Of a DNA stretch of 45,299 bases, positions 31,588 to 41,193 are shown piece after piece. Where the stretch lies: the NCBI RefSeq assembly GCF_013282575.1, contig NZ_JAAAYE010000047.1, forward strand, positions 1 through 45,299. Direction: 5' to 3'. Source of the DNA: Paraburkholderia sp. NMBU_R16 (lineage in GTDB: Bacteria; Pseudomonadota; Gammaproteobacteria; Burkholderiales; Burkholderiaceae). Below the pieces are notes generated by a model. The model searched no databases and was not told the origin of the DNA. It worked only from the letters and a program-made list of their open reading frames with translations. Numbering within the stretch: the first letter of the stretch is position 1; each line of letters starts with the position of its first letter. The position numbers and the translations under genes were made by a program.

Positions 31588-32271
31588 ATGTCAATCAATG
31601 CTCTGTTCGATCCGTCGCCCGATCCGGCAGCCGGGCGCGTCTTGCTCGTCATGCTCCCGGGCGTCAACGACCGCGCCTCTTCTTTTTTTTCGAACGGGAT
31701 CGTGCAGGCGCTCCGTGAGCGCCGCCTGCCCGTCGATGCACTCGGTATCGACGTCGATTTCCCCGCCTATGCCGATGGTTCGCTACTGCCTCGATTGCAC
31801 GGCGAGATAGATCGGATCGCCCATCGGCGCGGCATCGAACGGCTCTGGTTCGTCGGCACGTCGCTCGGCGCGATGGGCGCCCTGATGTATTGCCGTGCGC
31901 ACCCGGGCAGCACGGACGGCGTCGTCCTGCTCGCCCCCTATCTCGCCAGTCGGCGGGTGCTCGTGCAGATCGCCAAAGCGGGCGGGCTCGATGCCTGGCG
32001 GCCCGACGCCAACGAGCCGGGCGATATGGAATGGCGCGTGCTCGACTGGCTGCGCCGTGAGGTCCGGGACGCGTCCAGTGGCTTGCACGTGCATCTCGGT
32101 TATGGACGCAGCGATCCGTTCGCGCTGGGCAGCACGCTGCTGCAAGCGCTGTTGCCGGCGCAACGCAGCGTCGACACTGCCGGCAGCCACGATTGGCCCA
32201 CCTGGTCCGCGCTATGGGCAAGCGTTCTCGACCGGGACCCTTTCGAGGCAAAAACCGCGCGGGCTACCTGA
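31588..32271 (+). CDS. Alpha/beta hydrolase
   Basis: This 227-residue cytoplasmic hydrolase has the alpha/beta fold. Its oxyanion region is LVMLPGVNDRASSFF near the start. The nucleophile elbow is GTSLG with Ser92, a likely acid is in YGRSDPFA, and the histidine is in GSHDWPTW near the C-terminus. It has no signal peptide or lid-like insertion. The sequence does not show whether it is an esterase, thioesterase or lipase. Its last eight bases overlap convergently with the end of the oxygenase operon. A part in that pathway, for example release of an acyl chain, is possible but not shown, because it is on the opposite strand. Confidence 0.82.
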   Translation: MSINALFDPSPDPAAGRVLLVMLPGVNDRASSFFSNGIVQALRERRLPVDALGIDVDFPAYADGSLLPRLHGEIDRIAHRRGIERLWFVGTSLGAMGALMYCRAHPGSTDGVVLLAPYLASRRVLVQIAKAGGLDAWRPDANEPGDMEWRVLDWLRREVRDASSGLHVHLGYGRSDPFALGSTLLQALLPAQRSVDTAGSHDWPTWSALWASVLDRDPFEAKTARAT

Positions 32272-32683
32272 TGCGAAGCTCGCGCCAAAACCTGCGGCGC
32301 GGCAACGCAAACGCGGGTGGCAACCCCGCCTCGGGCGGCGGAAAATGACGCCCCTCGTCGCTCAAGCGCCGATGGGCCTCGTCCCACGCCGGCAACCGCG
32401 CCACGCTGTCGTGCCAATGAACGACCGAGCTTTCGTCGCACCATCTCAGCAGATGACGCATGATCCGGCGATGAATCCCCGCATGCACGTAGGCCACCAT
32501 GGCGGGCTCGTCCTGCCATACGGTTCGCGTCCAATAGGTATCGCAGCTCGCGCTGAGCACCGATACAGCGAGGTTGCCCGGTGCCGCGCGCGCCTGCCAG
32601 GCGGCCGCCATCGTCGCGGCCAGCACGAATGGGATGTGCCGCCAGGCGCGCACATGCAAGCGCGTCACCGAGATCACCGGCAT
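32264..32683 (-). CDS. DUF3291/CrtA-like dimeric alpha-beta barrel protein
   Basis: This 139-residue protein resembles the DUF3291 and spheroidene-monooxygenase (CrtA) group. The pattern is a first strand with VTRLHVRAWRHIPF, then TRTVWQDEPAMVAYVHAGIHRRIM and SVVHWH. Such ferredoxin-like barrels often bind heme or oxidise hydrophobic substrates, but many have no known activity. It is the last gene of the polyene-type operon and its ATG overlaps the end of the oxygenase gene by ten bases; an upstream ATG at 32722 would give a longer overlap. Its position suggests a late oxidative or binding step on the same product. The assignment rests on pattern similarity only. Confidence 0.6.
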   Translation of the reverse strand: MPVISVTRLHVRAWRHIPFVLAATMAAAWQARAAPGNLAVSVLSASCDTYWTRTVWQDEPAMVAYVHAGIHRRIMRHLLRWCDESSVVHWHDSVARLPAWDEAHRRLSDEGRHFPPPEAGLPPAFALPRRRFWRELRIR

Positions 32684-34077
32684 GGCGACGTTGCGCGCTC
32701 GAGCGCCTGCCGTTCGACCCATGTTCCATGCGCGCCATACGGCACGCGCTGCGGCAGCTCGATCGATGCCACCTCCTCGCCGCAGAACCGCTGAGCATCG
32801 AGCACGACCAGCCGGCTGCGATCGACGCGTGCGTCATAGAGGAAACACAACACCCAGCCTTCGTCTTCGGCGCTGTCCTCCCTTGCCGGCACGAACTGCG
32901 CCTCCGACGCCGCTTCATATTCGCTGAAGCGATGATGCTCGACGGCGCCGCTCGCAAAGTCGTATTTGAAAAGGCCGCTACAGGCGAGCCAACCGTGACG
33001 AAGCACAATCTCCGTCGAATAGCCGTATCGATGCGCGCGGCCCGTCAAGCGGTCGTCGAGCCGCGGGAACTCGCCCGGCGAATCGGCGATGCAGGTGCCC
33101 GAGACGCGCCCTGCCAGTGTGTCGATCCGCCACTCATGCATCGCTAACGAAGCCGCGTGCGGCCGTGGCATACCGGTCAGGTAGTAAGGATGACTGACCA
33201 CCGCGCGCAGCACGACTTGGTCACCGTCGTCGAATGCATTGAGCACATGCGAGACAAAGCAGGTATCGATCGCGAACCATTTCACCGGCACACCTTCACG
33301 GTGCAAATCGAGCAAGCCGAGACGCGAACCGTACTCGGGTGCCCAGCGAAACGGCAAGCCGCCTCCCGGGCGCGGCGGCCTCTCGAACAATAGGGGCTGG
33401 TCGACGAAAACGGCGAAGCGCTCGGAAATGGCGAAATCGTGCATGACCGTGGCGCCCGCGACGTCGACCGGTTCGGCGCGCGCCATTCGTCCATCGGGGT
33501 CCACGCGAAAGTAGGTTACGTAGGGACGCCGCGGCCAATAGCCGAAGCCATGCAGGGCGTTGGTGGCGGGATCGCGCTTGGGATGCGCGGTCATGCTACG
33601 AGCCAGGCCGCCGCCAAAATCGCAGCGCCCCACTGTGTCCAATCGTCCGTTCAGCTCATAAGGCAGCCCCGTTTCGCCCAGTGCCAACAATCGCCCCGCG
33701 TGCGCGACGACGCTGACATTGGCCGCGTTCCCGAAGCTCCAGCGACGATCGGCAGGACCGCCCGGTGGCGCGCGGTTCGCTACCTGCGCAAGGCCATCGG
33801 TCGATACCCAGCGATTGCGATACCAGAGTGCACGGCCTTGCGCGATCCTCACACCGTGCACCATGCCATCTTCGAGAAACACGTGCGGCTGCGGTGTACG
33901 ACGCGACGGATGCGAATTGAAGCTGTTGCGCAGATACAAGCCGTCCAGCTCAGGCGGAATGGCGCCGCGCACGCATAGATCGGTGGCCTCGCGCTCGTCG
34001 TCGAGCGGGACGAACACGCCGTTCGCGCCGTAGCCCGCGATATCGGCGAGCGCGCGGCTCGTCGCCTCACGCAACAT
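32674..34077 (-). CDS. Carotenoid oxygenase (RPE65/carotenoid cleavage dioxygenase family)
   Basis: This 467-residue non-heme iron enzyme belongs to the family that cleaves double bonds of carotenoids, retinoids, stilbenes or lignin-derived alkenes. The four iron-binding histidines of the seven-blade propeller are visible: His165 (TAHPKRD), His213 (MHDFAIS), His277 (VSHVLN) and His450 (GAHGTW). LRNSFNSHP near residue 50 and FLEDGMVHG are also typical. No carotenoid biosynthesis genes are in the window. Instead it sits in an operon with type II fatty acid synthase genes, overlapping the diiron protein gene by eleven bases, so its substrate may be the polyene made by that operon. Confidence 0.9.
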   Translation of the reverse strand: MLREATSRALADIAGYGANGVFVPLDDEREATDLCVRGAIPPELDGLYLRNSFNSHPSRRTPQPHVFLEDGMVHGVRIAQGRALWYRNRWVSTDGLAQVANRAPPGGPADRRWSFGNAANVSVVAHAGRLLALGETGLPYELNGRLDTVGRCDFGGGLARSMTAHPKRDPATNALHGFGYWPRRPYVTYFRVDPDGRMARAEPVDVAGATVMHDFAISERFAVFVDQPLLFERPPRPGGGLPFRWAPEYGSRLGLLDLHREGVPVKWFAIDTCFVSHVLNAFDDGDQVVLRAVVSHPYYLTGMPRPHAASLAMHEWRIDTLAGRVSGTCIADSPGEFPRLDDRLTGRAHRYGYSTEIVLRHGWLACSGLFKYDFASGAVEHHRFSEYEAASEAQFVPAREDSAEDEGWVLCFLYDARVDRSRLVVLDAQRFCGEEVASIELPQRVPYGAHGTWVERQALERATSPCR

Positions 34078-34891
34078 GCGCGGAGCGCCGTGCGGCGCGG
34101 TAGCGCTTTTTCATGCCGGCGTAGACCTCATAGAACGCGTCGACGCTCGGGATTTCGAGATCGAGCATTTTCGCGATCCGGCTCACGATATGTTCGCGGT
34201 AGCGCCGCTCGACTTCCTTCATGTCGAGGCATTTCATTTTAAGCAATGTCAAGAACACGGGATGTTGCGTGACGCCGTCGCTTGCCGGCTGCAAGAGGAA
34301 CCATGCCGTGCGCAGTGCGATGAGGCGGTCCCGCTCGGGATCGTCGGATCGCTCGATCGCTTGCCGGCAGTAGTATTCGAAGCCAACCGAATGCCGCATT
34401 TCGTCGCGCGCGAGATGCTTCACGATTTCGACGAGCACCGGCTCTTCCACGGTCTTCGCGAACTGGTTGTACGCGGTGTTGGCCGCGATCTCGGAGCAGA
34501 TATTGGATGTCAGCATTTCCACGCGCGAGGGGGTCATCGGCTCGATCTTCCTGCCGCGATGGATGAAATCCTGCGCGGTTGGCACGCCGAGTTTGCCGAG
34601 CCAGCGTATCAGCGCGAGCGGATGCTTGGTCTCTTCGAAGAACCACACGGAAAGCCATTGAGTGAAGTCGACATCGTCGTGCAGCAGCTTCATGAACGCT
34701 TCCGTCGCGGAGAACGTCGTCAGTTCGGCATAGGCCGCGATCTTCACATCCTCGATCAGTTCGGCGCTCACCTTGCTCTCGTCGATCTCGTCCCACGGCT
34801 GGTCGCGGAAGATCCAGCGCGCTTTTTCCGATGTCTCGAGCAGGCGGAAATAGCCGAGCTGGTTACTGAGGTCGTCGATCTGAAATGCCAT
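34067..34891 (-). CDS. Ferritin-like diiron protein (acyl-ACP desaturase-like oxygenase)
   Basis: This 274-residue helical protein has the ligand set of a non-heme diiron enzyme: Glu56 (AELTTFS), Glu87 and His90 (EETKH), Glu134 (CSEIAANTAYNQ), and Glu164 and His167 (DEMRH). The two ExxH pairs and their spacing match soluble acyl-ACP desaturases and related ferritin-like oxygenases. It is shorter than plant or actinobacterial desaturases. The start is the ATG of MAFQIDDLS; a longer frame to 34969 overlaps the dehydratase gene and is rejected. It lies 23 bases after the dehydratase gene in the same operon, so an ACP-bound intermediate is a reasonable substrate (inference). Confidence 0.8.
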   Translation of the reverse strand: MAFQIDDLSNQLGYFRLLETSEKARWIFRDQPWDEIDESKVSAELIEDVKIAAYAELTTFSATEAFMKLLHDDVDFTQWLSVWFFEETKHPLALIRWLGKLGVPTAQDFIHRGRKIEPMTPSRVEMLTSNICSEIAANTAYNQFAKTVEEPVLVEIVKHLARDEMRHSVGFEYYCRQAIERSDDPERDRLIALRTAWFLLQPASDGVTQHPVFLTLLKMKCLDMKEVERRYREHIVSRIAKMLDLEIPSVDAFYEVYAGMKKRYRAARRSAHVA

Positions 34892-34914
34892 CGTTTGCGC
34901 TCCATCGAAAAAAT

Positions 34915-35373
34915 TCACTCTGGCATCGCAACGGTCATCGTGCCGCGAGCGATACGAACTGCGCCGCACACCACGGAAAACTCATAGCGTGCGGCTGTCA
35001 CGCCCGTCGCAGTCAATCGCGCTCGAATGTCCAGAGGACTCCGAATCATTTCAACTTCGTCGAGCGAGCATGGGCAGAGCTCGACCGCATGCAGCGCAGC
35101 GATATACGCACGCCGCAGGGCGCGAGCCTCGCCGGTCTTGACGGTCGCGCCGGTGAGGCTCGCGTGAAGTGCCGCGGCCTGCGCCGCGTACTCGATCGCG
35201 TGCACGCTGCTCAATCGGCCGTCTTGGCGCAGCGGGTGGTCCGCCCGCGCATGCGAATGCGCAGTGCAGACAATGCCGTTCGCATCCCACTCCCGAACGG
35301 CCGCCAGCAGGCACATGGCTCCCGCATGGGGAATCCGGCGATAGATGTCTCGACCGTCAAGCCGGTTCGACAT
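34915..35373 (-). CDS. 3-hydroxyacyl-ACP dehydratase, ApeP-like hot-dog protein
   Basis: This 152-residue protein looks like the FabA/FabZ-type dehydratase of aryl polyene clusters (ApeP). The catalytic histidine is His16 in RRIPHAGAMCLL, and the acid is Glu61 in VHAIEYAAQAAALHA, the hot-dog helix. The C-terminal half (IRARLTATG, YEFSVVCG) forms the sheet. It would remove water from 3-hydroxyacyl-ACP to leave a trans double bond. The start is the ATG of MSNRLDGRD, overlapping the end of the chain-length-factor gene by 17 bases. It is the second of two dehydratases in the operon. Confidence 0.82.
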   Translation of the reverse strand: MSNRLDGRDIYRRIPHAGAMCLLAAVREWDANGIVCTAHSHARADHPLRQDGRLSSVHAIEYAAQAAALHASLTGATVKTGEARALRRAYIAALHAVELCPCSLDEVEMIRSPLDIRARLTATGVTAARYEFSVVCGAVRIARGTMTVAMPE

Positions 35374-36160
35374 GGATGGCCACGCTCGTTCGCGCGCCTT
35401 CCGGCGCCGTTGCGAGAAAGACTCGCTCGTCGCTGTGGCATGCGAGCCGGGCGAGCAGCGGCAATGCGCGAGCGGCGGCATTACCGCTGCGCAAGCGTTC
35501 GAGCGCGTGGTCCGCCATAGCCGTATCGTCCCGCCTCCCGACATGCTCGATATGCATCGCGAAACAATCCCGGCCGACGCGCTCGCGATGAATCGTCATC
35601 GCTGCCGCGAACGGTGCGACGATGGGCAGATGCGCATCGATCGGCGCAGGCGCCGGCTGCTCGTAGCAGACGAAGAGCACGGGTGCACGCTCGGCCAGTA
35701 CCAGGCAGCCGGCCTCGAGCAGACCCGCGACAAACGTTGTCTCGCCCGCACTGAGGCTCGTCGAGCCGCCGCACGCGTGCGCGCCGATAGACCAATAGCC
35801 GGCGCTCGCGTTGTGCACGATGTTGTGAAAGTGGAAGGGAGAAACAGGCACCCCCGGTCGACCCAGCGCGACGCAAACGCGATCGGTCACGTGAAGATCG
35901 CCCGCGGAAGAGGCGAACACAGAAGGCAGCGCGGCCAGATCGAGCGACGAGCGCTTCGCGAGTTGTTCGGTGACACGCAACGCAAGACGAATCGCGGCTG
36001 TCGCGCGCCGCCTTTCGTTCGGCGCCAGCATTTCCGGTTCGCCGGCCTCGAATTCGCACGGGACATAGCGCTTCTCGCCTCGCAGCGTGGCGGCAGCCTC
36101 ATCCCAGCCGGACAGCCCGGGGCCCAGTACCTCGAGCGCTTCGACGAAGAGCGTCTTCAT
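35357..36160 (-). CDS. Beta-ketoacyl synthase chain-length-factor-like protein (ApeC type)
   Basis: This 267-residue protein matches the short, N-terminal-type ketosynthase partner found in aryl polyene systems. It contains thiolase-fold elements (ALPSVFASSAGDLHVTDRV, FHFHNIVHNASAGYWSIG, GLLEAGCLVLAE) but not the TACSSS active-site cysteine motif of the full synthase. It is expected to pair with the next upstream-encoded ketosynthase as a heterodimer that sets chain length. Its ATG overlaps the ketosynthase stop by four bases (ATGA), the usual sign of 1:1 coupled translation of such pairs. Confidence 0.82.
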   Translation of the reverse strand: MKTLFVEALEVLGPGLSGWDEAAATLRGEKRYVPCEFEAGEPEMLAPNERRRATAAIRLALRVTEQLAKRSSLDLAALPSVFASSAGDLHVTDRVCVALGRPGVPVSPFHFHNIVHNASAGYWSIGAHACGGSTSLSAGETTFVAGLLEAGCLVLAERAPVLFVCYEQPAPAPIDAHLPIVAPFAAAMTIHRERVGRDCFAMHIEHVGRRDDTAMADHALERLRSGNAAARALPLLARLACHSDERVFLATAPEGARTSVAIHVEPA

Positions 36161-37365
36161 TGCACAGCCTCGAAAATGAGCGCGCAGTTGTTGCCGCCGA
36201 AGCCGAATGAATTGCTGAGCACGCGGCGCAGCGGCCTCTCCTCGTTCTCGAGCGCGACGTCTGTTCGCAGTTCCGGATCGGGATCAATCGTGTTCAGCGT
36301 CGACGGAACGAGGTTCGCGCGCATGCACAGAAACGACAGCACCGCTTCGGTGATACCGGCAGCGCCCTGGGTGTGGCCCGTCCAGCCCTTGGTCGAACTG
36401 CAGGCGCATGCGCCGCCGAACACCGAAGCGATGGCGGCATCTTCGGATCGATCGTTCGAGGGCGTTCCGCTGCCGTGAAGATTGACGTAGTCGATGTCAG
36501 CCGGAGCGAGGCCGGCGCGGCGCAACGCCTGGTCGATTGCGCCGCGCGCACCTTCGCCTTCGGGGTGCGGCGCTGTCATGTGATAGGCGTCGCTACTCTC
36601 GCCGAAGCCCGTCAACGCCACCGCGCCATGGCCGCGCGGCGCACGTTCGAGCAAAGCGAAGCCGGCTGCTTCGCCGATGCTGATACCGTCGCGGTTGCGG
36701 TCCCACGGCCGGCACGGTTGCGTCGAGAGCAAGCCCAAGGAGTGAAAACCGTAAATGAATCCTTCGTTCGCGCAATCGATGCCTGCCACGACCGCCGCAT
36801 CGCACAGACCCGCCGCGATATGACGGTATGCGGTAGCGAACACTTTGGCGCTCGACGAGCACGCCGTCGAGATCGTGGCCGACGGTCCGTCGATACCGAG
36901 CACGCGCATGACGTATTCCGTTGCCGAGAATAGGTGCGCGGTATGACGCACGCGGACATCTGAGCCAAGATCGTCCGTGCTTGGGGTACGACGGACATAG
37001 CACGCTTCGAGATGTGCCAGTCCAGACGCGATCGTACCGACGAAACATCCGACACGCTCGGCGCCATACCGCTCGCGGGCACCGGCCACGGCGAGCGCGA
37101 AGCCGTCGCGCTCGACGCCCCGGCCAAGCATGCGATGCGCGCGGCAATCGAATCGCGCAAACTCGCCGCCGAGCGAATCGCCGATGGCCTCGTCATCCAC
37201 GAGACCGAGCCATGTCTTGCGGCCGGTGCGCAACTCGAGTTCGCGCAAGCCGCCCTGCCCCGACCGCAACGCGGCCAACGCAGCGTCGTTGCCCGCACCG
37301 AGCGCACTGGTGAGGGTATAAGCGTTCACGTAAAGCGGCGCGATCGGCGCCGATGCGTTCGTCAT
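36157..37365 (-). CDS. Beta-ketoacyl-ACP synthase (FabF/ApeO-like)
   Basis: This 402-residue condensing enzyme has the full Cys-His-His set of a FabF-type synthase: Cys169 in STACSSS, His297 in LHGSGTPSND, Lys326 in KGWTGHTQGAAG, and His331. It elongates an ACP-bound chain with malonyl units. The start used is the ATG of MTNASAPIAP, overlapping the dehydratase stop by four bases; the frame open to 37428 is in the dehydratase gene. It is closer to ketosynthases of aryl polyene and flexirubin-type pathways than to housekeeping FabF, judging by its operon partners. Confidence 0.88.
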   Translation of the reverse strand: MTNASAPIAPLYVNAYTLTSALGAGNDAALAALRSGQGGLRELELRTGRKTWLGLVDDEAIGDSLGGEFARFDCRAHRMLGRGVERDGFALAVAGARERYGAERVGCFVGTIASGLAHLEACYVRRTPSTDDLGSDVRVRHTAHLFSATEYVMRVLGIDGPSATISTACSSSAKVFATAYRHIAAGLCDAAVVAGIDCANEGFIYGFHSLGLLSTQPCRPWDRNRDGISIGEAAGFALLERAPRGHGAVALTGFGESSDAYHMTAPHPEGEGARGAIDQALRRAGLAPADIDYVNLHGSGTPSNDRSEDAAIASVFGGACACSSTKGWTGHTQGAAGITEAVLSFLCMRANLVPSTLNTIDPDPELRTDVALENEERPLRRVLSNSFGFGGNNCALIFEAVQ

Positions 37366-37688
37366 GCTGCATTGACCTCCGCGCGAAGCCTGCCGGACGC
37401 GAAAAGCGAACCGGCATCCTTCGCGCATTGAAAAGAGACGATGTCGTCATCGATCGAAAGCACGATCTCGAACGGCTCGCCCGGGCGCAGCACCTCCACG
37501 AATTTCACGTGCTCGATGCGCGTAATCGCAGCGCCGGCATACGATTGCGCGACGGCACGGCTGACGCGCTCGAGCAAGACGACGGCCGGCACGACCGGAT
37601 GGCCGGGAAAATGGCCCGGTATCGCCGCATGGCTGGCATCCACGGTATCGCGAATCACGCATCTCGCCCCTCCCGTCACCGTCATCAT
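37362..37688 (-). CDS. 3-hydroxyacyl-ACP dehydratase, ApeI/FabZ-like hot-dog protein
   Basis: This 108-residue single-domain hot-dog protein has the FabZ-like core GHFPGHPVVPAVVLLE, with His30 and Glu40 as probable catalytic residues. It would act on short 3-hydroxyacyl-ACP intermediates, dividing labour with the ApeP-like dehydratase. Two starts are possible. A pair of ATG codons at 37683-37688 follows a good GAAGG site and is used here. A TTG at 37719-37721 overlaps the ACP stop by four bases and would add eleven residues. Confidence 0.78.
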   Translation of the reverse strand: MMTVTGGARCVIRDTVDASHAAIPGHFPGHPVVPAVVLLERVSRAVAQSYAGAAITRIEHVKFVEVLRPGEPFEIVLSIDDDIVSFQCAKDAGSLFASGRLRAEVNAA

Positions 37689-37717
37689 GGCGCCTTCTGC
37701 CCTCGTGACGGCTGGTA

Positions 37718-37984
37718 TCAATGAGTCTGTGCGGCCCGATGCTGCTCGACATGATGGCCGAGCGCCCTCAGCGAGCGGAATATCTCGTGATTCTTCTGGT
37801 CGCCCGGCGTGATGGTGATCTGATAGGTCGACGACAACAGCAGACCAAGCTCGAGCGCATCGATCGAATCGAGACCGAGACCCTCGCCGAAAATGGGCGC
37901 CTCGGGGTCGATGCTCTGCGGGTCGATATCCAGATCGAGCCCCTCGGTGATCAGCTTGGCCAGCTCGCGTTCGATTTCATCCAT
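37718..37984 (-). CDS. Acyl carrier protein
   Basis: This 88-residue acidic helical protein carries the phosphopantetheine attachment site Ser40 in GLGLDSIDALEL. The flanking helices (ELAKLITEGLDLD and LGLLLSSTYQI) are typical of ACPs in aryl polyene and related type II systems. It ends with a short His-rich tail. It is the first gene of the eight-gene minus-strand operon and has a GGGAGG ribosome-binding site ten bases before its ATG. The growing polyene or fatty chain should be tethered to it. Confidence 0.9.
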   Translation of the reverse strand: MDEIERELAKLITEGLDLDIDPQSIDPEAPIFGEGLGLDSIDALELGLLLSSTYQITITPGDQKNHEIFRSLRALGHHVEQHRAAQTH

Positions 37985-38392: not shown

Positions 38393-39421
38393 ATGCCGAC
38401 ACAGACTTATTCGACGGGGAGCGTGGCGCCGCGCGAACGCTTCGAGTTCTGGCGTGAAGCGCTGTGCCTCAACTTCTACGGCATGACCGCAGAGTGGGAC
38501 CCCGCGAGCCGTACCGAAGATTTCGATGCGACTCTGTCCGCGACACCGGTCATGGATCTCTCGCTCGTCGAATTCAAGGCGAGCGCGCACATGTGCCTGC
38601 GCCGCGAGCGCGAAATCGCCGAGCGGCCAGGCAACTCCATGTATCTTTATCTGCAGACGCGCGGCGCAGCCTGGTTCGACACGCCTGATGACCGCCAACC
38701 TTTCGTCACGCCGACACGCGCGATGGCCATCGGTTTTTCCGAACGCCCGATGAAAACCGGGCCCACGAATGGCGAGCGGTTCGATTTTCAGCTCGTGCGA
38801 ATCCCGCTCTATCGAATCGCGCCCTTGATGGGACAGCGGATGGTCATTCGCGCGCGCGCGCTCGATGACCGCACAAGCATGGCGAGCCTCCTGCGCGGCT
38901 ATTTCGACCTGCTTTTTCGCGAGGGCCCGTCGATGGATGCGGTGGCGGCGGAGGCCGCGGCGCAGACCTTCGCGCGGCTCGCCGCGGTGGCGTACGGGCT
39001 CGCCCCGGCAGAAAACGAATGGGTACGCGACGCGGTGCGCGACGCTAAACGGCAACGCGTGCTCGCTTTCGTGGAACACCATCTCGATGAGCCGGACTTG
39101 TCGCCCGCGCGGGTCTCAGAGACGCTCGGCATGTCGGTTCGCCAACTGCATGCGCTGTTCGAGCCGACAGGGACGAGCTTTACGCAGCAAGTGCGCGCCA
39201 GGCGTCTCGAGCGGGCACGAATGCTCGCGCTCTCATGCCCGGGCATGAAGATCGCGGATATCGCCTATTCCTGCGGCTTCGAAAGTGTCGGCACGTTTCA
39301 CCGTAGTTTTCGGCAAGCCTACGGCGTGACGCCCGGCGAGTGGAGGGAATCGCTCAGTGCAAGCGCGCCAGCTGCGGTCCAGCCCCTTCAAAACACACTT
39401 GCGCCGCGCCCGAGCAGGTAA
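38393..39421 (+). CDS. AraC-family transcriptional regulator
   Basis: This 342-residue regulator has an N-terminal AraC-binding-like domain (about residues 1-190, beginning FEFWREALC, similar to the FeaR/NdpR group). The C-terminal double helix-turn-helix contains LSPARVSETLGMSVRQLHALF and MKIADIAYSCGFESVGTFHRSFRQAYGVTPGEWR. It is divergent from the polyene-type operon and is the most likely local regulator of it, or of the convergent FAD oxidase. The last 34 bases overlap the end of that oxidase gene on the other strand. The ribosome-binding site is weak. Confidence 0.9.
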   Translation: MPTQTYSTGSVAPRERFEFWREALCLNFYGMTAEWDPASRTEDFDATLSATPVMDLSLVEFKASAHMCLRREREIAERPGNSMYLYLQTRGAAWFDTPDDRQPFVTPTRAMAIGFSERPMKTGPTNGERFDFQLVRIPLYRIAPLMGQRMVIRARALDDRTSMASLLRGYFDLLFREGPSMDAVAAEAAAQTFARLAAVAYGLAPAENEWVRDAVRDAKRQRVLAFVEHHLDEPDLSPARVSETLGMSVRQLHALFEPTGTSFTQQVRARRLERARMLALSCPGMKIADIAYSCGFESVGTFHRSFRQAYGVTPGEWRESLSASAPAAVQPLQNTLAPRPSR

Positions 39422-40872
39422 TGCGGGTCGAATTGCCGCTTCCAGGCGGCGAATTGCTCATAGACCGCTCCATAGTGCATCTGCCAGTCCGCTTTGGAAA
39501 ACGGCACGGCATCTTCGAGATAACGCGTACCGCCGATCGCGACAGCGCTCTGCCACAGCCGATAGTTGCGTGCAAGCATGCTGGCCGAATAGCTCGGATC
39601 CGGTCCTGGCAGCGTCGAATTAGTGAGGAGTCCGAATACCCAGTGCCACCCGGTGCTCGGCGGCACGCGCAATAGTGGGGCAATGGTGCCGGACTTCACC
39701 GGCACGATGACGAGAAATGTCGTCGCGCTGAGGTCTTGCGGGCCAAGCGCCGGCACGACGGATTCGACAAACGCCTGCGCGCCGGAATCCGGCAGCACTA
39801 CATTGATCCACGGTTTGATGAGGCGGTCCCAGTTCGCGCTCGTTCTCAGCGCATTGACAGCCGTGTCGACGAGAAAGACGTAATCGAGGTACGGCATATC
39901 GACGAACTGACCGCCCTGCGCGAGCGCGCTGCAGCCCTGCATCAGCGTAGCCGTGGGCGGCGGCGGAGCCGACGGATCGAAGAGCGCGGCAGCCCACAGC
40001 GCGATCGGCGCAACGGGACCCGTCGAATTCACGCTCGCAACCCAGTCGAATCCGCCTTGGCGGCCCCCGCGCGCCGCGAGCGTCCGTACATCGCTAAAAA
40101 AGGTAGCGATATCGGCATAGGGGACGCGATAAAGTCGCGCCATTGTCTTCGCGGGCACCATCTCGACGGTGGCGCGCGTGATCACACCGCATTGCCCGAG
40201 GCCCGCGCGCAATGCATTGAAGAGATCGGTATTCTCGCCGGCCGAACACCGGACGATGTCGCCGTTGCCGGTGACGGCCTGCAACGCAGCGACATGGTTG
40301 ACCTGCCAGACATCGCGGTTACTCGTCATTGCGTTGAGCCCGCCGATCGATAGAGTCCCTGCCACGCCGAGCTGCGTATAGCCCGTAATGGAGGCGGGCG
40401 TAACGCCTTGCGCGAACGCCGCTTTGATGAGATCCATCCAGAGGACACCGCCATCGACATCGGCATGCGTCGATGTGATCGAATGAATCGTGGCCAGCGA
40501 TCGCATATTGATCATCAACCCGCCATCGACAAGCGTCTGACCAAACACACTATTCTTGCCCGTGTTCGGCGAGACGCCTATACCGAACCGGCCGCAATAC
40601 CGGATCATCTTCGAGATATCGTCGACGGAGGCCGGATAAAGCACCGCGCACGGCGTGCGCCAAAGCATGTTTCCCTCGTCGTGCGCGTTGCCGGCCAACG
40701 TCGTACTGTCCATGACGAGCTTGCCGTCGAGCGGCGGTACGCGCGTGAACGACGGGCACGCCGCAGCCTGAGCCTCGTCGATCCAACTGCGTCGCGTCGG
40801 GTCGAAGCCCACGATGGTTGAGGCAACGGCGAGCGCTGCCCCGGTCATGAAACGCCTTCGGTCGATTGGCAC
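39388..40872 (-). CDS. Tat-exported FAD-binding oxidase (berberine bridge/cytokinin dehydrogenase-like)
   Basis: This 494-residue flavoprotein begins with a twin-arginine signal (DRRRFMTGAALAVAST), so it is folded in the cytoplasm and exported. The FAD_binding_4 domain shows LYPASVDDISKMIRYCGRFG, TGKNSVFGQTL and GGTL-like LGVAGTLSIGGLN. The C-terminal half, ending FDPHYLLGRGASVF, resembles cytokinin dehydrogenase. It lacks an obvious HxxH-type bicovalent FAD site of berberine bridge enzymes; attachment is uncertain. The start is a GTG after GGAGACGAAC, four codons before the arginine triplet. The substrate is unknown. It converges on the AraC gene with a 34-base overlap. Confidence 0.85.
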   Translation of the reverse strand: MPIDRRRFMTGAALAVASTIVGFDPTRRSWIDEAQAAACPSFTRVPPLDGKLVMDSTTLAGNAHDEGNMLWRTPCAVLYPASVDDISKMIRYCGRFGIGVSPNTGKNSVFGQTLVDGGLMINMRSLATIHSITSTHADVDGGVLWMDLIKAAFAQGVTPASITGYTQLGVAGTLSIGGLNAMTSNRDVWQVNHVAALQAVTGNGDIVRCSAGENTDLFNALRAGLGQCGVITRATVEMVPAKTMARLYRVPYADIATFFSDVRTLAARGGRQGGFDWVASVNSTGPVAPIALWAAALFDPSAPPPPTATLMQGCSALAQGGQFVDMPYLDYVFLVDTAVNALRTSANWDRLIKPWINVVLPDSGAQAFVESVVPALGPQDLSATTFLVIVPVKSGTIAPLLRVPPSTGWHWVFGLLTNSTLPGPDPSYSASMLARNYRLWQSAVAIGGTRYLEDAVPFSKADWQMHYGAVYEQFAAWKRQFDPHYLLGRGASVF

Positions 40873-41193
40873 GTTCGTCTCCGGTCGTAAAGTCCGCGAT
40901 ATTGCGTGGGGAGATGGGGCCTTGGACAGACAGACACGCCCGGGCGTATCGCCATGCTGCTCGATGGCGATGTAAGCGAATGTGCGAAATCCGGGCAGCT
41001 CGCCGTCGTTCACCCCTGGAAAGCGCGGCTCGCTCACGATCGACGCGGACCGCATACGCCACCAATGGTGCCGATGCACATTGCGGCTGTCGTGCCAATC
41101 CGCGCAGACTTGAGTATCAACGCGTGCAACGCGCGGTGTTCGTTCAGCCGGGGCGTAAAGGTGAACTACGGAAAATTGCGAAAACTACGAGAA
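40873..41193. other. Intergenic region upstream of the FAD oxidase gene
   Basis: About 320 bases separate the oxidase start from the LysE stop. It must hold the oxidase promoter, unless transcription continues from lysE. I see no convincing -35/-10 pair, repeat or small gene. Confidence 0.4.

Follow-up and report, generated by a model that had tools for sequence, protein, structure and literature searches.

What might a bacterium make by joining a polyene-synthesis core to carotenoid-style oxygenases? This question is raised by a compact operon located on the minus strand at positions 32264–37984 of contig C47 (NZ_JAAAYE010000047.1) of Paraburkholderia sp. NMBU_R16; the whole contig, a stretch of 45,299 nucleotides from a 6.28 Mb genome assembled in 562 contigs, is hereafter called the window. 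The operon groups the genes of an aryl polyene (APE)-type fatty acid synthase (FAS) core, i.e. an acyl carrier protein (ACP), a ketosynthase (KS), a chain-length factor (CLF) and two hot-dog dehydratases (DH1 and DH2), with those of a ferritin-like diiron protein, a carotenoid-cleavage-oxygenase-family protein (CCO) and a DUF3291 protein. We assign a probability of about 0.5 to the reading that it represents a rare offshoot of APE synthesis, in which an APE-derived polyene carried on the ACP would be cut, or oxidised at its end, by the CCO with the help of the diiron and DUF3291 proteins.

All eight genes were open and intact at the coordinates of the original prediction. With gene starts set as the relatives support (KS 37365, DH2 35373, diiron protein 34891, DUF3291 protein 32683), consecutive genes overlapped by 4, 4, 4, 17, 11 and 10 bases at six of the seven junctions, the sole non-overlapping junction lying between DH2 and the diiron gene. 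The operon and the gene facing it are organised as follows:

37718–37984, minus strand: ACP of 88 aa with a GLDSID site (PF00550, PRK09184)
37362–37721, minus strand: DH1, hot-dog dehydratase of ApeI/FabZ type (weak FabA/FabZ matches, HFP motif)
36157–37365, minus strand: APE-type KS of 402 aa, ATG at 37365 (PRK09185, 6qsp_A, tree)
35357–36160, minus strand: CLF-like partner of the KS, 267 aa (PF13723, 6qsp_B)
34915–35373, minus strand: DH2, ApeP-like hot-dog dehydratase (named by position and similarity)
34892–34914, minus strand: 23-base gap between DH2 and the diiron gene, where four relatives carry a ketoreductase (KR) gene
34067–34891, minus strand: ferritin-like diiron protein of 274 aa (sub-threshold FA_desaturase_2 and Rubrerythrin matches, DesA2 match)
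32674–34077, minus strand: CCO of 467 aa with four conserved His (PF03055)
32264–32683, minus strand: monooxygenase-like DUF3291 protein, conserved start at 32683, longer open reading frame (ORF) to 32722 (PF11695)
31588–32271, plus strand: alpha/beta hydrolase, convergent with the operon (Esterase 24.3, above a cut-off of 22; weak Hydrolase_4)

The operon is a real and conserved entity, as its genes recur in four other genomes (in one of them as a 4 kb fragment) with ratios of non-synonymous to synonymous substitution rates (dN/dS) of 0.04–0.37 over three genome pairs and nine genes, which is more than chance would leave; these ratios come from simple counting, with dS near or above 1, and are rough. 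They point to purifying selection on each of the nine genes, the highest values being those of DH1 (0.37) and DH2 (0.30) between the window and its sister species (G005) and the lowest those of the diiron gene (0.04–0.07). The compact, one-strand arrangement of eight genes that had been described from the window was thus borne out. Its distribution is narrow. Orthologues of the diiron protein were detected in 2 of 11 genomes of the genus (E ≤ 1e-35) and in 5 of the 299 genomes of a family sample (E ≤ 1e-32), and the window's own genome was the only carrier in the class (1/369) and phylum (1/398) samples (E ≤ 1e-30). CLF matches were found in 137 of the same 299 family genomes (E ≤ 1e-8; about 25 of the CLF places listed are weak, their E values exceeding 1e-16, and possibly represent other ketosynthases), indicating that APE-type cores are common in the family whereas the oxidative version is rare.

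Conservation of the gene order had been proposed as a check, and it held in part: the core, diiron, CCO and DUF3291 genes occur together in the sister species as well as in a second genus, but their order varies. In G005 the order is ACP-DH1-KS-CLF-DH2-KR-diiron-DUF3291-ligase-CCO, and in two genomes of the second genus (G080 and G102) ligase-ACP-DH1-KS-CLF-DH2-KR-diiron-CCO-DUF3291, an order followed from KS to CCO by the 4 kb contig of a further genome (G256). The oxidative genes are therefore kept beside the FAS core in relatives, as the original prediction required. Protein identity to the window ranged from 47–61% for DH2 up to 84–92% for the diiron protein. When the window was compared by blastn with the 20 kb region of G005, the operon and the hydrolase were the sole matching DNA, so that they behave as a unit. 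The CCO gene that lies elsewhere between the diiron and DUF3291 genes has been deleted in G005, leaving traces of both of its ends, and another CCO, 66% identical to that of the window, stands at the end of the same operon; its presence there despite the loss in place suggests that a CCO is needed in this operon. At this G005 locus (L036:8264–9181), the diiron frame runs into the leftovers of the deleted CCO and the C-terminus gains about 30 residues. A divergent MFS transporter gene was observed upstream of the operon in G005 only.

Several lines of evidence place the synthesis core, as judged from sequence, with the APE type and not with housekeeping FabF, in agreement with what had been proposed. 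The KS matched PF00109/PF02801 and the NCBIfam model PRK09185 (439.6 bits, cut-off 407), with its catalytic Cys conserved, and remained far under the cut-off of the housekeeping model TIGR03150 (fabF; 222.3 against 493.75). The CLF matched PF13723 (Ketoacyl-synt_2, 94.6 bits), and the best solved-structure matches of KS and CLF were 6qsp_A and 6qsp_B, respectively, chains that PMC8358021 gives as ApeO–ApeC of Xenorhabdus doucetiae. The ACP matched PF00550 (35.4 bits) and PRK09184 (97.1, cut-off 70). DH1 had a weak FabA match (20.3 bits for a Pfam cut-off of 23) and aligned with the C-terminal part of an AMP-binding ORF in an APE-like cluster (L082) of the window's genome. DH2, for which no match appeared in the Pfam scan, was 33–42% identical to the gene that follows the CLF at all 17 other KS-CLF loci compared, and both dehydratases aligned with their counterparts in L082 and L083. 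The GLDSID of the ACP with its Ser, the HFP of DH1 and the RIPH.GAM..L of DH2 were all kept in four operons. Polyene synthesis by this core is thus well supported by sequence.

The phylogeny of the KS pointed the same way. Our tree included the four operon KSs, 17 KSs designated APE-type because they adjoin both a CLF gene and an ApeP-like one (the strongest CLF loci provided 15, contig C7 of the window's genome and contig C60 of G005 one each) and 4 FabFs. The FabFs split off at 100/100, and the operon KSs formed a single clade (100/100) with a long stem, on the APE side of this split. APE monophyly was not rejected (approximately unbiased test, p 0.387) and the bootstrap had not settled; the tree is compatible with the operon KSs being either the sister group of the APE-type KSs or a lineage within them. 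Elsewhere in G005 (C3:70374–75242), three FabF-like ketosynthase matches under the cut-off accompany a KR-like match of 51%.

As had been noted, the window operon holds no ApeH-type AMP-ligase, and no acyltransferase, RND/MMPL or Lol export gene or second ACP was found among the operon genes or those neighbours scanned. The list of missing genes nevertheless holds for the window operon only, as regards KR and acid ligase: the relatives' operons carry both, which does not support their being absent by design; these two functions were probably lost in the window lineage. The KR is present in the G005, G080, G102 and G256 operons and absent from that of the window. In G005, a 732-base KR gene lies between DH2 and the diiron gene, and the sequence immediately in front of the diiron start still resembles that of the window, which probably reflects a clean KR deletion in the window lineage; loss is the simpler reading because the second genus also has the KR. 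For the ligase of the relatives, the structure matches were phenylacetate-CoA ligase and PaaK-like enzymes, members of a family acting mostly on aryl acids. No orthologue of it was detected in the window's genome where, beyond an overlap artefact, a single stretch of 29% identity was found on contig C68. The artefact, a weak match of the ligase protein P0001 at C47:31987–32400, was considered as a ligase remnant and rejected, as the over-long N-terminus of P0001 overlaps the DUF3291 gene in another frame; once most of this N-terminus was removed, the ligase no longer matched the window (E ≤ 0.01). The G102 ligase (L048:3475–4966) is split by a frame break that may be either real or an assembly error.

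These missing functions may be supplied from elsewhere in the genome. A separate APE-like cluster was identified on contig C7 (L082, G000:C7:12001–32000), with genes for an AMP-binding protein with a dehydratase-like C-terminus, a lipid-A-type acyltransferase, an MMPL protein, a KS, a CLF, an ApeP-like protein, a KR and an ACP. Its KR is 61% identical to that of the G005 operon, and seven short-chain dehydrogenase/reductase (SDR) proteins of the genome match the operon KR at E ≤ 1e-30. With this cluster, including its KR and AMP-ligase, and the PaaK-like ligase of the relatives, the non-aryl starter initially proposed found no support. In the C7 cluster, the KR and ACP lie on the strand opposite to the KS and CLF. 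KS, CLF, dehydratase, KR and ACP matches also occur together on contig C60 of G005; G080, G102 and G256 each had one CLF match among the best 8 candidates per genome, and a second is possible.

Turning to the oxidative part, the CCO matched PF03055 (RPE65 type) over its full length (352 bits, profile positions 2–468 of 469). Its four His, which we take to be the iron ligands, are conserved in four operons, and the Glu of GETG, presumably with a second-shell role, is replaced by Asp in G080 and G102. It matched solved structures of carotenoid 9,10-dioxygenase, 9-cis-epoxycarotenoid dioxygenase and lignostilbene dioxygenase, and scored below the curated cut-off of each of the three NCBIfam equivalogs that it matched. 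None of the five carrier genomes had a CrtI-family match above the cut-off, their best matches being short N-terminal pieces of at most 61.6 bits for a cut-off of 238.1 that 4 of 14 control genomes passed (phytoene synthase was not searched for); a home-made carotenoid is therefore an unlikely CCO substrate, and an imported one might still serve. At 14 named loci of CCO relatives (26–47% identity), none of the seven other operon proteins was found within the flanks examined (E ≤ 1e-3), so CCOs do not generally occur in this combination. The DUF3291 protein (PF11695, 30.6 for a cut-off of 23.5) is kept in four operons. An alpha/beta hydrolase, with conserved GTSLG.MG and HDW motifs (Ser/His), adjoins all four operons whose end is visible (window, G005, G080 and G102).

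In the diiron protein, the candidate ligands E56, E87xxH90, E134 and E164xxH167 were invariant among 22 aligned sequences. Its other aligned kin are an uncharacterised protein of about 290 aa from related genomes (26–29% identity). This ferritin-like protein (L037:7935–8807, loci L004–L021) is a distant relative of the operon's. Some match to the diiron protein at E ≤ 0.001 was found in 37 of 61 sampled genomes, two of these genomes having only weak ones; its plasmid kin are weak too (4 records, 32–37%).

Compared with known APE clusters (X. doucetiae, E. coli CFT073, A. baumannii), the operon shares the KS, CLF, two hot-dog dehydratases and ACP and, in the relatives, a KR and an acyl-activating ligase. 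It differs in having one ACP and neither ApeH-type ligase, acyltransferase, RND/MMPL/Lol-type transport nor second KS; the diiron protein, CCO, DUF3291 protein and hydrolase are found instead, and its KS belongs to a long-stemmed clade of its own. In APE synthesis, as presented in PMC8253772, 4-hydroxybenzoate is loaded by ApeH and the predicted end is envelope attachment and transport. Oxidative cutting of polyketide polyenes is an idea already proposed elsewhere: PMC11727611 proposes it for limocrocin (Lim18) and simocyclinone (SimC4/SmcC4), cites fumagillin Fma-ABM as shown to perform it, and groups SmcC4 with CrtP (CruO) as carotenoid oxygenases. Lim18, SmcC4 and Fma-ABM resemble the present case as oxygenases shown or proposed to cut a polyketide polyene and differ by their polyketide synthase types and organisms, a distinction drawn from descriptions, not sequences. 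SmcC4 and CrtP (CruO) are flavin adenine dinucleotide enzymes and are not known to belong to the RPE65 type. In the literature searched, the combination of an APE-type core with a diiron protein, an RPE65-type CCO and a DUF3291 protein was not found.

The pathway that we propose would be a branch of APE synthesis of ten genes, of which the window holds a reduced copy. The KS-CLF pair, both dehydratases and the ACP would, as this set does in other systems, use malonyl units to lengthen an acyl starter to a conjugated, ACP-bound polyene. The starter would be loaded by the PaaK-like ligase in the relatives; in the window's genome, ligase and KR functions may come in trans, from the APE-like cluster or through other ketoreductases. 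The polyene would then be oxidised on the ACP or once freed by the hydrolase, the CCO splitting one double bond to leave an aldehyde (or, less likely, isomerising it), and the diiron and DUF3291 proteins would introduce functional groups on the chain or at its new end, or oxidise them there. We infer cleavage by the CCO. With neither acyltransferase nor APE-type transport genes in these operons, the expected product is a short polyene aldehyde, acid or diacid and not an APE lipid of the outer membrane.

Aryl polyenes are treated as cell-envelope pigments. If the proposed pathway is correct, a conserved branch would have exchanged envelope attachment and export for oxidative cleavage, so that small diffusible products would arise from the APE machinery, and a carotenoid-type oxygenase would act, within a compact operon, on a non-carotenoid polyketide substrate. 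The partial operon of the window and the APE-like cluster of the same genome would also offer a case of enzyme sharing between two pathways. A bolder version, which we hold only tentatively, is that bacteria with no recognisable carotenoid pathway would reach apocarotenoid-like molecules by a fatty-acid/polyketide-type route, in which a malonyl-built, APE-type polyene would be tailored and cut by carotenoid-style enzymes into an aldehyde or diacid, maybe a diffusible signal or defence compound, the window operon having shed its KR and ligase to live off the resident APE-like cluster.

Several observations weigh against an APE offshoot with oxidative cleavage, of which both the product and the CCO substrate are predicted only. 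The window operon is without KR and ligase, and their supply in trans is assumed. With the KR cleanly lost and the ligase absent, the operon could be a decaying remnant that makes nothing. We consider this improbable, given its eight intact frames and motifs and the seven SDR matches to the operon KR; the dN/dS of 0.04–0.37 against G005 argues in the same direction, although it is averaged over the whole divergence and compatible with recent decay.

A second point concerns the KS: at 45 positions, the four operon KSs agree on a residue that is absent from all 17 APE-type KSs, of which 16 or more agree on another. The product could therefore differ from a typical APE. This bears on a special case of the proposed pathway, in which the CCO would cut a true aryl polyene beside the ring or close to it, the fragments being an aryl aldehyde and either a dialdehyde or an acid of the polyene. 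The APE-type core, the APE-like cluster of the window's genome and the ligase of the relatives, by its matches to phenylacetate-CoA ligase and PaaK-like structures, would fit such a cut. By contrast, this ligase is absent from the window and frame-broken in the G102 assembly, and a His of all 17 APE-type KSs is replaced by Ala in the four operon KSs; this ring-proximal cut is a possibility that we retain with reserve. PMC8358021 reports a His at the cavity end of ApeO, which may or may not correspond to the replaced His.

The diiron protein also fell just below the Pfam cut-offs (FA_desaturase_2, 21.7 for 22.7; Rubrerythrin, 22.7 for 22.8), and its AlphaFold model, computed without alignment, had a mean pLDDT of 43. 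It resembles acyl-ACP desaturases and ferritin-like proteins (DesA2, rubrerythrin) by E...ExxH occurring twice with a spacing of about 30 residues, and differs by staying under the cut-offs of these families. Together with the DesA2 match (1za0, E = 3.6e-4) and that to FA_desaturase_2, both weak, this pattern would suit a core making a partly unsaturated acyl chain instead of a long polyene, the diiron protein acting as a soluble acyl-ACP desaturase towards a lipid or polyyne-like product. Such a route appears doubtful, as the presence of the CLF and of two APE-type dehydratases favours an iterative build-up of a polyene and no membrane desaturase match was obtained among the operon genes.

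Finally, stilbene-cleaving enzymes are among the structure matches of the CCO, and two of the three neighbourhoods read among 36 plasmid records with a CCO match look catabolic, so that a stilbene-type substrate stays possible. Both of these plasmid CCOs, H17 and H20, adjoin aldehyde dehydrogenase and SDR genes, H20 also enoyl-CoA hydratase, AMP-binding and CoA-transferase genes; the third place, in B. stagnalis, is without annotation. The oxidative genes could thus act on an imported aromatic compound or apocarotenoid (of stilbene type or from plants), the APE-like core merely sharing their operon, and the CCO does score, under the cut-off, with lignostilbene dioxygenase models. It shares with the carotenoid-cleaving and lignostilbene dioxygenases of PF03055 the full-length family match and the four His, and differs from them by its setting, an APE-like operon in genomes without a CrtI match above the cut-off. 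We regard an imported substrate as rather unlikely, since the diiron orthologues stand beside the core, and only there, in all five carriers and since the G005 operon keeps a CCO after losing the one in place.

Among plasmid homologues of the DUF3291 protein, one is annotated as an antibiotic biosynthesis monooxygenase, and no annotated CCO or KS was seen near a Methylobacterium homologue. A link of the operon to the trisporoid control of fungal mating was entertained and set aside, as no evidence supported it. An AraC-type regulator gene upstream of the operon (38393–39421, plus strand) was rejected as part of it, with no match at E ≤ 0.01 at the eight other loci compared, namely four with a CCO and four with the operon (the 4 kb fragment included). 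An ORF of 563 aa at 39388–41079 (minus strand) converges with this regulator.

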